A stretch of DNA of 36,553 bases from Pseudooctadecabacter sp. Lineage in GTDB: Bacteria > Pseudomonadota > Alphaproteobacteria > Rhodobacterales > Rhodobacteraceae. Numbering within the stretch: position 1 is the first letter of the stretch; every line of letters starts with the position of its first letter. The translations under genes and the position numbers were made by a program. The DNA is taken from contig NZ_JAHDGE010000031.1 of assembly GCF_020627745.1 (NCBI RefSeq), positions 1 through 36,553 on the forward strand, read 5' to 3'. The notes under the pieces are model-generated. The model was given only the letters and a program-made list of their open reading frames with translations, was not told the origin of the DNA and searched no databases. Positions 20,587 through 30,113 of this stretch are shown here, piece by piece.

Positions 20587-20601
20587 TTAACCACGCGTTA
20601 A
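20587..20601. promoter_or_regulatory. Candidate CtrA box (TTAA-N7-TTAA)
   Basis: TTAA at 20587-20590 and TTAA at 20598-20601 are separated by exactly 7 nt (CCACGCG), the full CtrA consensus known from alphaproteobacteria. It lies 51 nt before the ATG of the GT87-type gene and downstream of the EEP stop. In sequence this GC-rich such a spaced pair is unlikely by chance. CtrA control is inferred. Confidence 0.6.
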
Positions 20602-26951: not shown

Positions 26952-28112
26952 ATGAGCGACCACAAAAAACCAACCGCCTGTCTGGTTCTGGCCGACGGCA
27001 CCGTCTTTTACGGCATGGGCTTTGGTGCCACCGGCCAGACGGTGGCCGAACTGTGTTTCAACACCGCGATGACAGGCTATCAGGAAATCATGACCGATCC
27101 GTCCTATGCGGGCCAGATCGTGACATTCACCTTCCCCCATATCGGCAACACCGGCGTCACTCCCGAAGACGATGAAACCGCCGATCCCGTGGCCTCCGGC
27201 ATGGTGGTCAAATGGGATCCGACGACGCCCAGCAACTGGCGGTCTGTGGAACAGCTTGAGACATGGCTGGAAAAGCGCGGGCGCATCGGCATCGGCGGCG
27301 TTGATACGCGCCGCCTGACCCGCGCGATCCGCCAGCAAGGCGCGCCGCATGTGGCCATGGCCCATGATCCCGACGGTAATTTCGATATCGAGGCGATGGT
27401 CGCCGCCGCCCGTGAATTTGCAGGTCTGGAAGGGCTTGATCTGGCCAAGGATGTCACCTGTGCGCAGTCCTACCGCTGGGACGAAATGCGCTGGGCCTGG
27501 CCCGAAGGGTTCAAACGCCAGACCGAGGCCGTGCACAAGGTCGTCGCCATTGACTACGGCGCCAAACGCAACATCCTGCGTTGCCTTGCGTCGGCGGGCT
27601 GCGATGTCATCGTCTTGCCGGCGACCGCCACTGCGGAAGAGGTCATGTCCCACAACCCCGATGGCGTGTTCCTGTCCAACGGTCCGGGTGACCCGGCGGC
27701 CACGGGGGCCTACGCCGTTCCCATGATCAAGGAAGTCCTGACAAAAGATGTCCCCGTTTTCGGCATCTGTCTGGGTCATCAGATGTTGGCGCTGGCACTG
27801 GGGGCCAAAACCATCAAGATGAACCACGGCCACCACGGTGCCAATCACCCGGTCAAGGATCAGGACACCGGCAAGGTCGAAATCACATCAATGAACCACG
27901 GGTTCACAGTTGATGCGCAATCCCTGCCCGACGGTGTGCGCGAAACCCATACATCCCTCTTTGACGGGTCCAACTGCGGCATCGCGATGGACGGACGGCC
28001 TGTCTTTTCGGTGCAATACCACCCCGAAGCCTCCCCCGGCCCGATGGACAGCTATTACCTGTTCGAACGCTTCGCCGAAGCCATGGCCAACAAGGCAGGT
28101 GCCGAGGCCTGA
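26952..28112 (+). CDS. carA: Carbamoyl-phosphate synthase small chain
   Basis: The 386-residue glutaminase subunit of carbamoyl-phosphate synthase, which supplies ammonia for arginine and pyrimidine synthesis to CarB. The N-terminal CPSase_sm domain (about 8-140) carries ELCFNTAMTGYQEIMTDPSYAGQIV. The class I glutamine amidotransferase domain (about 195-375) has nucleophile Cys273 in FGICLGHQ and the His-x-Glu pair in YHPEASPGP. carB is not in the window. GGGGGA lies about 10 nt before the ATG. The 200-nt gap to yqeY shows no clear pyrimidine attenuator. Confidence 0.96.
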   Translation: MSDHKKPTACLVLADGTVFYGMGFGATGQTVAELCFNTAMTGYQEIMTDPSYAGQIVTFTFPHIGNTGVTPEDDETADPVASGMVVKWDPTTPSNWRSVEQLETWLEKRGRIGIGGVDTRRLTRAIRQQGAPHVAMAHDPDGNFDIEAMVAAAREFAGLEGLDLAKDVTCAQSYRWDEMRWAWPEGFKRQTEAVHKVVAIDYGAKRNILRCLASAGCDVIVLPATATAEEVMSHNPDGVFLSNGPGDPAATGAYAVPMIKEVLTKDVPVFGICLGHQMLALALGAKTIKMNHGHHGANHPVKDQDTGKVEITSMNHGFTVDAQSLPDGVRETHTSLFDGSNCGIAMDGRPVFSVQYHPEASPGPMDSYYLFERFAEAMANKAGAEA

Positions 28113-28122
28113 GCCTCAGGCG

Positions 28123-28149
28123 TTAACGTCGACTTAACCTATCCTTAAC
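28123..28149. promoter_or_regulatory. Tandem CtrA boxes (three TTAA half-sites, 7-nt spacing)
   Basis: TTAA occurs at 28123-28126, 28134-28137 and 28145-28148, each pair separated by exactly 7 nt, with C after each. This makes two overlapping full CtrA consensus sites (TTAA-N7-TTAAC). They lie 45-71 nt before the ATG of the GT2 gene and just after the carA stop, where a promoter for the GT2 gene is expected. Regulation by CtrA is inferred from the motif alone. Confidence 0.75.
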
Positions 28150-28193
28150 CCTTTCCCGCCCAAGCTGGGGACGGGACAAGAAGGTAGGATGGG

Positions 28194-30113
28194 ATGGCTT
28201 TGACATTCAGGACCGGTCGCGGACAGGCGACCGCGCAGCAAACCGACGTGGCAGACCGCGTGGCACAGCCACGCAGTGTTGCCGACGTACTGGGCCCGTC
28301 CGGCATAGACGCGGCCCGCGCCCGCGCCGTCGCAGACCGAGCGCGCCGGTCGGCCAAGGCTCTTGCCGGAACATTGTATCCCGGACAACCTGACCTCACG
28401 CTTGCCTCGGCCGAGGCGCGGCGCCACAACACAAGCCTCGTGAACTTGCAAAAAGACCCGGCAGACCCACGCCTTGTGAAGATGTTCGGGGCGGATCTGT
28501 GTCTGAAGCACCGGGTTTTGCCGTGGCGCAATATTGCAGGGCGCGTGACCGTCGTGGCCGCAAGTGCCGATCATTTCCTAAAGGTCCACGACGTGCTGCG
28601 GGTGCTGTTCGGGGATGTCCATCTGGCCATCGTGACACCTTCGCAGATGGACCGCGCCTTTGCCCGCTTGTGCCACACCACGTTGATGGACAACGCCGAA
28701 TTGCGCACGGCGGCGGACGATTCCTGCCGTGACTGGAACGCGGGCCGGGCGTTCCGCTGGGGGGCTGCGGTCGCCCTGTCGGTCCTTGCCTGCCTGCTGA
28801 TCTGGCCCCAGACCAGTTTTCTGATCTTGTGTGGCTGGGCGATCCTGACCCTGGTGCTGAACACCATCCTCAAATCTGCAGCCGCCCTGTTTCACCTGTT
28901 CCCCAAACCCGCCAGAACCGACCCCGTCGTCGCGCCAGCGGACCTGCCCGTCGTCACCGTCATGGTGCCTTTGTTCAAGGAACGCGACATCGCGGGCGCG
29001 CTGGTGCACCGCCTGTCCAAAATCGACTATCCTGCCGACAAACTCGATGTGTGTCTGGTACTTGAGGCGGATGACGGCACCACGCAAAAGGCCCTCGCGC
29101 AGACGGACCTGCCCTATTGGATGCGCGCCATCCGCGTGCCTCTGGGCACGCTTCAGACCAAGCCCCGCGCGCTGAACTACGCGCTCAGCTTTGCGCGCGG
29201 CTCCATCATCGGGGTTTATGACGCCGAAGATGCCCCTGCCCCCGACCAAATCTACAAGGTCGCCACGCGCTTCGCATCGGCCCCGCCGGACGTGGCCTGC
29301 CTGCAGGGCCGTCTGGATTTCTACAACAGCCACTCCAACTGGCTCGCCCGGTGTTTCACCGTGGAATATGCCGCATGGTTCCGCATTATCCTGCCCGGAC
29401 TGGAAAGGATGAATCTGGCAATTCCCTTGGGGGGGACAACCCTGTTTTTCCGTCGCGATGTGCTGGAAAAGCTGGGCGGCTGGGACGCGCACAATGTCAC
29501 CGAAGATGCCGATCTGGGCATTCGCCTGAACCGGCGCGGCTTTCGCACGGAGATTTTCGACAGCACCACTCAGGAAGAGGCAAATGCCCGCGTCTGGCCA
29601 TGGGTCAAACAACGGTCCCGCTGGCTCAAGGGGTACGCAATCACCTATGGCGTCCACATGCGCAATCCGCTGCAACTGTGGCGCGACCTGGGGCCGTGGC
29701 GGTTCTTTGGTGTGCAGCTATTGTTCATGGGCACAATCAGCCAGTTCCTTCTGGCCCCGCTGCTCTGGTCCTTCTGGCTCATGCTGATCGGGCTGCCGCA
29801 TCCATTGAACGGGGTATTGACGCAGCCTGTCGCGCTGACCTTTGCCAGCATCTTTGTGCTGACCGAAGTGATCAACATCTCTGTCTCGGCCCTCGCTGTG
29901 ACCTCCGCGCGCAAACGCGAACTCATCATCTGGACGCCAACGCTTCATTTCTATTTTCCGCTGGCGGCCATCGCGGCCTACAAAGGGGTTATCGAACTGG
30001 CGACAAAACCCTTTTACTGGGACAAGACGACCCACGGCATTTTCGCCCCGACCGAACCGCGTCAGATCAGTGCGCGGCCTCGACCGCTTCCGCATCCAGT
30101 CGCAGCCGAATGA
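28194..30113 (+). CDS. GT2 membrane glycosyltransferase with GspE-N (MshEN-like) N-terminal domain
   Basis: A 639-residue inner-membrane glycan synthase. Residues about 26-165 resemble the N-terminal domain of type II secretion ATPases (TSLVNLQKDPADPRLVKMFGADLCLKHRVLPWR, then VTVVAASADHFLKVHDVLRVLFG). Two helices follow (about 187-206 and 208-228), then a GT-A domain with EADD (291-294), DAEDA (343-347), TEDADLG (catalytic Asp region 436-442) and QRSRW (473-477, the Q-x-x-R-W motif of processive synthases). Three or four C-terminal helices (about 497-590) complete a cellulose/hyaluronan synthase-like layout. It probably makes or exports an exopolysaccharide. In known proteins the GspE-N/MshEN domain can bind c-di-GMP. 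The gene's last 47 nt overlap the convergent gntR gene. Confidence 0.85.
   Translation: MALTFRTGRGQATAQQTDVADRVAQPRSVADVLGPSGIDAARARAVADRARRSAKALAGTLYPGQPDLTLASAEARRHNTSLVNLQKDPADPRLVKMFGADLCLKHRVLPWRNIAGRVTVVAASADHFLKVHDVLRVLFGDVHLAIVTPSQMDRAFARLCHTTLMDNAELRTAADDSCRDWNAGRAFRWGAAVALSVLACLLIWPQTSFLILCGWAILTLVLNTILKSAAALFHLFPKPARTDPVVAPADLPVVTVMVPLFKERDIAGALVHRLSKIDYPADKLDVCLVLEADDGTTQKALAQTDLPYWMRAIRVPLGTLQTKPRALNYALSFARGSIIGVYDAEDAPAPDQIYKVATRFASAPPDVACLQGRLDFYNSHSNWLARCFTVEYAAWFRIILPGLERMNLAIPLGGTTLFFRRDVLEKLGGWDAHNVTEDADLGIRLNRRGFRTEIFDSTTQEEANARVWPWVKQRSRWLKGYAITYGVHMRNPLQLWRDLGPWRFFGVQLLFMGTISQFLLAPLLWSFWLMLIGLPHPLNGVLTQPVALTFASIFVLTEVINISVSALAVTSARKRELIIWTPTLHFYFPLAAIAAYKGVIELATKPFYWDKTTHGIFAPTEPRQISARPRPLPHPVAAE

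Follow-up and report, generated by a model that had tools for sequence, protein, structure and literature searches.

TTAACCAT is a published form of the CtrA site, and flagellar CtrA promoters have been mapped in Cereibacter (Rhodobacter) sphaeroides, where transcription is reported to start 23–24 nt from the end of the box and position -11 is always an A (PMC6180460). Placement of the box over the -35 region is reported for activation (PMC6180460, PMC11264516). The fliI2p promoter of the same organism is described with an upstream predicted site that shares a half with the proposed site (PMC6180460), and pilA of Caulobacter crescentus with four CtrA sites, made up of a -35 core and additional sites upstream of it (PMC11264516). 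Within the Rhodobacterales, the divL and luxI promoters have been reported to contain CtrA sites (PMC4046655); the published accounts consulted connect CtrA in Rhodobacteraceae chiefly with DNA repair, motility, gene transfer agents and quorum sensing, and the CtrA target list given for D. shibae comprises 101 promoters. On the protein side, the nearest characterised counterpart of the enzyme considered here is E. coli NfrB, a c-di-GMP-controlled enzyme which shares its combination of MshEN and glycosyltransferase and is described as making a secreted polysaccharide needed for phage N4 infection (PMC8669469).

The window, i.e. the whole 36,553-nt stretch of Pseudooctadecabacter sp. DNA that was analysed, contains an array of CtrA-like half-sites between carA and a gene encoding a GT2 glycosyltransferase with an MshEN-like region. 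In the following list, promoter positions with a minus sign are counted from a predicted transcription start.

26952–28112, + strand: carA, the upstream neighbour; a same-strand carA match is found in 74/80 named-record loci (best 80 of 593 relatives)
28123–28126, + strand: extra upstream TTAA half-site, predicted at about -50 to -47; without a counterpart in 13/13 congeners
28134–28149, + strand: predicted core CtrA box, TTAACCTATCCTTAAC, at about -39 to -24 and over the -35 region
28161–28166, + strand: -10-like hexamer of the NANNNT type, CAAGCT, beginning 27 bp after the first T of the core box
28173, + strand: predicted +1 of transcription, to within 1 nt, placed by the A at -11 and the 23–24 nt between box end and start site (PMC6180460)
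28194–30113, + strand: MshEN-like and GT2 glycosyltransferase gene, 639 aa, with orthologs in 357/394 family genomes
28431–28682, + strand: MshEN-like region, aa 80–163, preceded by degenerate c-di-GMP-binding motifs
28950–29630, + strand: GT2 catalytic domain, aa 253–479, with DAED, TED and QRSRW motifs

The array, TTAACGTCGACTTAACCTATCCTTAAC, occupies positions 28123–28149 and consists of three TTAAC elements on the + strand, separated by GTCGAC and CTATCC. Its TTAA half-sites (28123–28126, 28134–28137 and 28145–28148) follow each other with a period of 11 bp, start 71 to 49 bp 5' of the ATG of the MshEN-GT2 gene (28194), and form two overlapping boxes, each an exact TTAA-N7-TTAAC on the + strand; the carA stop is at 28112. 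The preliminary description had reported three TTAA half-sites at 7-nt spacing between the carA stop and the GT2 start, which was confirmed by the coordinates and by motif matching on the + strand. With the C. sphaeroides spacing, transcription is predicted to start near 28173, and the core box would span about -39 to -24. The promoter resembles the flagellar ones of C. sphaeroides in its box over -35, the predicted 23–24 nt to the start and an A at -11 (PMC6180460), and differs from them in its target, which is a glycosyltransferase and not flagella, in its strict 7-bp spacing and in its extra in-phase half-site. With C. crescentus pilA it shares a -35 core with additional upstream sites (PMC11264516), but the pilA sites stand apart from one another at irregular distances and match the motif imperfectly, whereas those of the window follow each other head to tail in a single array that repeats every 11 bp.

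Among 18 congeners searched, three gave no match (all under 90% complete) and two (L031, L045) were truncated at the locus. The 13 congeners with a readable promoter all keep one exact box about 60 nt before the start codon, i.e. at the position of the second box of the window, and none of the 13 has the triple. Half-site retention in close relatives, a point raised by the preliminary description, thus stands for the core box (kept in 13/13) and falls for the outermost half-site (kept in 0/13). In a named-record sample made up of the best 80 of 593 relatives, 78 loci had at least 150 nt of upstream sequence, with starts chosen from the alignment; an exact TTAA-N7-TTAA is present within -250 to +20 in 73 of these 78, and every other spacing from 0 to 20 in at most 7.

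The family sample comprised 394 genomes from 393 genera, about one genome per genus, of which, at E 1e-60, 357 encode a GT2 ortholog and 37 do not. Promoters were examined for the best-scoring 149 of the 357 (148 genera; one row was dropped at a contig end). An exact TTAA-N7-TTAA was found 5' of the GT2 gene in 136/149, a one-mismatch box in 12 of the remaining 13, and a single promoter (G149) had no box even when one mismatch was allowed. The count of 136/149 refers to an upstream region extended to the alignment start; a narrower region, which ended short of the promoter for proteins with short N-termini, gave 128/149. Other spacings each occurred in at most 6/149 promoters, with the exception of N18 (18/149, mostly triples), and the reversed control AATT-N7-AATT in 1/149. 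Across the family the core box lies most often about 60 nt 5' of the GT2 start, although one set of box-to-start distances was picked within 45–75 nt and cannot prove the distance. The conserved element is the second box (28134–28149), not the whole triple.

The spacing between box and -10 element is independent of start-codon choice. Apart from the box itself, the clearest signal is NANNNT, which in 101/136 family promoters begins at offset 26 or 27 when counted from the box's first T, compared to at most 13 of 136 for any other offset from 15 to 44, and TTGA was found at the matching -35 position in none of the 128 promoters checked. The aligned promoters give the consensus TTAAC(C/G)...TTAACC(A)(T). 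In the window, likewise, the box overlies the -35 region at this fixed distance from the -10-like hexamer and no sigma-70 -35 element is apparent, the start site itself being predicted.

Both CtrA and a phosphotransferase are encoded in the genome: a CtrA ortholog (L127), which matches the Caulobacter sequence at 78% and scores above the NCBIfam NF045991 cut-off, and ChpT (L302), above its Pfam cut-off. The same genome also has a box 60 nt 5' of a PAS-domain DivL-like gene (L002 1501–1561) and another 108 nt 5' of an autoinducer synthase gene (L010 1501–1609), alike to the divL and luxI promoters of Rhodobacterales, in which the same box is reported (PMC4046655). The DivL-like name is a putative assignment, NCBIfam giving no name. 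As a benchmark, DivL-like promoters were collected from 26 of 36 matching genomes, the window's own included; six genomes were without the locus and four had matches starting far inside the protein. An exact box is present in 25/26 of these, and the GT2 promoter thus appears to be about as conserved as that of a reported CtrA target.

We consider it highly probable that the array belongs to a CtrA-activated promoter of the MshEN-GT2 membrane glycosyltransferase gene. Phosphorylated CtrA would bind the core box at 28134–28149, over the -35 region, and, as no sigma-70 -35 hexamer is apparent, would recruit RNA polymerase to the -10 at 28161–28166, activating transcription from near 28173. The extra TTAA lies one helical turn upstream, which would place three in-phase half-sites on one face of the DNA; it may bring in one more CtrA protomer, the third, or increase occupancy when CtrA~P is scarce. 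The triple layout may also allow cooperative or graded binding, as suggested in the preliminary description. That the GT2 gene is a direct CtrA target, as first proposed in the preliminary description, is strongly supported at the sequence level by the cross-genus box, its spacing, the -10 position and the CtrA ortholog.

Motifs of the DAED, TED and QRSRW type are typical of processive synthases. The window protein carries the DxD-type, TED and QxxRW motifs of processive GT2 synthases, and the corresponding columns are kept in 128–131 of 132 orthologs; the activity being predicted, the enzyme is probably a processive exopolysaccharide synthase. In NfrB the MshEN domain is C-terminal. The MshEN-like region of the window protein is, unlike that of NfrB, N-terminal, and its c-di-GMP motifs are degenerate in the window's genus; by analogy, a surface role like that of NfrB may be proposed. 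The c-di-GMP receptor signature of MshEN is described as two RLGxx...LxxxLxxQ motifs, perfect copies of which may not be needed (PMC5013675). The window protein and the congeners inspected have degenerate versions of these motifs, and under a loose definition both are intact in 27/132 orthologs and motif 2 in 44/132. Control of the window protein by c-di-GMP was set aside in view of its degenerate motifs. A GTA-receptor role via rcc01081 or rcc01932 was likewise set aside, as the published text available does not show either to be the GT2 gene. The gene after GT2 encodes a GntR-type regulator on the opposite strand.

The third half-site returns in the same register more often than background would give. 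At offset -11, 14/136 family promoters have an additional exact TTAA, whereas the other upstream offsets average 0.47 each and reach 6 at most, which is an excess of about 30-fold. A triple is found at the GT2 promoter in 24/357 GT2-bearing genomes (23 by sequence and G081 by coordinates only), a count based on triple and GT2 coordinates compared by eye together with promoter sequences, and two genomes, G097 and G302 (L294, L293), have four in-phase TTAA half-sites there. Of the main sample's 14 triples, 11 have their -10 at 26–27 bp from the downstream box, and none has it at that distance from the upstream box; as the -10 spacing tracks the downstream box, this box is the core and the addition is upstream. 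All 22 readable triples have an in-frame start codon 50–72 nt from the downstream box, some with nearer alternatives. The putative third CtrA half-site is a lineage-specific yet recurrent upstream extension.

Whether the triple is particular to the GT2 promoter depends on the comparison made. Among 1027 boxes in 51 genomes, seven triples are at GT2 promoters and seven elsewhere, i.e. 7 of ~47 GT2 promoters versus 7 of ~973 other boxes (Fisher p about 8e-7), where the denominators are rough and most of the ~973 comparison boxes may not be CtrA promoters. Exact triples at GT2 (14/136) versus DivL-like promoters (0/26) differ without reaching significance (Fisher p 0.13), which lowered our estimate for a hotspot and slightly raised that for site turnover. 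Near half-sites, one mismatch away, have a similar frequency at -11 of DivL-like (4/26; L303, L304, L306 and L322) and of GT2 promoters (22/128, exact ones included), and extension in phase may occur more widely among strong CtrA promoters rather than being specific to GT2. A FastTree phylogeny was built from 125 GT2 proteins, of which 24 belong to genes with a triple; the triple genomes were fetched on purpose and are therefore over-represented, and the tree informs the independence of the triples, not their frequency. The triple label changes 12 times on this tree, with at least 11 changes forced by well-supported branches, compared to a mean of 22.3 changes for shuffled labels, of which 0/500 were as low as 12. 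The triple is thus partly inherited and has been repeatedly gained or lost.

A serious possibility, if short of probable, is that the triple is a functionless by-product of site turnover, in which one half-site arises in phase while another decays. Its restriction to the window among the 13 congeners, its patchy yet clustered distribution on the tree (12 versus 22.3 changes) and the similar frequency of near half-sites at both promoter classes would all agree with this, and three promoters (G240, G287 and G150), in which the outer two half-sites are exact and the middle one has one mismatch, fit site turnover as well. The roughly 30-fold excess of exact TTAA at -11 argues against it, as does the absence of any sign of a register shift, the -10 following the downstream box in 11/14 triples and the upstream box in 0/14.

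It is less likely than not, in our estimate, that CtrA binds and the third half-site lowers or delays expression, although the sites 5' of the -35 site in Caulobacter pilA are reported to both reduce and delay it (PMC11264516) and the extra half-site of the window is similarly upstream of the core. Against this, each upstream site of pilA is an imperfect box in its own right, and the closest is 31 bp away, whereas the half-site of the window is in phase with its core.

We regard it as very improbable that another regulator with a similar site, such as CenR or Fnr/Dnr, is the real binder: a Dnr/Fnr site of D. shibae is described with the same TTAAC half (PMC7232146) and CenR is reported to control envelope genes in C. 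sphaeroides (PMC9275681), but the conserved TTAAC-N6-TTAACC, with its exact 7-bp spacer between TTAA and TTAA, is the CtrA consensus. CenR was rejected as the binder, its published motif being TGA-N8-TGA (PMC9275681).

That the triple arose by chance in the base-composition sense is hardly credible, for although triples occur somewhere in 81/394 family genomes (104 in all) and the reversed control pattern also has matches among the 394, 24 of the 81 triple-bearing genomes have theirs at the GT2 promoter and even one box is expected only 0.04 times in the window, so that the counts disfavour chance. The window contains three full boxes (20587, 28123 and 28134) against 0.04 expected from dinucleotide shuffles, and 0/100 shuffles of the window reached three. 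The preliminary estimate of well below one full site in 36 kb was therefore right, and the accompanying view that an in-phase triple in a promoter position is unlikely to be chance gains support from its recurrence at the GT2 promoter. The triple TTAA array occurs once in the 2.94-Mb assembly, in the window itself, and its reversed control not at all. TTAA-N7-TTAA is found 23 times in the same 2.94 Mb compared to 18 times for the reversed control AATT-N7-AATT, which makes a single box weak evidence without comparison.

Returning to the CtrA-activated promoter, a cell-surface sugar would, if this reading is true, be an added core CtrA output kept in nearly every genus examined, and would tie the phosphorelay to adhesion and perhaps also to the reception of phages or GTAs. 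No published report of the GT2 gene as a CtrA target was found at the level of titles and abstracts, and prior publication is possible. We further suggest, tentatively and as one possible view, that few CtrA targets in the family are as well conserved as the GT2 promoter, and that it is a hotspot at which in-phase half-sites are added again and again upstream of a fixed -35 core; the PhoB-like head-to-tail arrays would then act as a gain knob, fixing how much CtrA~P is required for surface polysaccharide and, through it, for adhesion or phage/GTA reception. Arrays of two, three and four in-phase half-sites all occur naturally at this orthologous promoter and provide a set for measuring array length against CtrA output.

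A few further observations were made on the genes and motifs concerned. In one congener the match to the GT2 gene (G014:C1:650790-654232) falls into two segments with about 1.9 kb between them, which suggests an interruption. The third full box of the window, at 20587–20601, is located 66 nt 5' of the ATG of a GT87-like gene (20653), a distance close to that of the GT2 core box; as a conserved target it was rejected, the exact box being present in the region searched in 0/8 other loci (seven relatives and one paralogue). Genome G032 contains the reversed control AATT-N7-AATT 263 times compared to 11 TTAA-N7-TTAA. Genome G076, finally, has 106 TTAA-N7-TTAA boxes compared to five control matches, the median across 51 family genomes being 14, and this excess could represent a repeat family or an expanded regulon.
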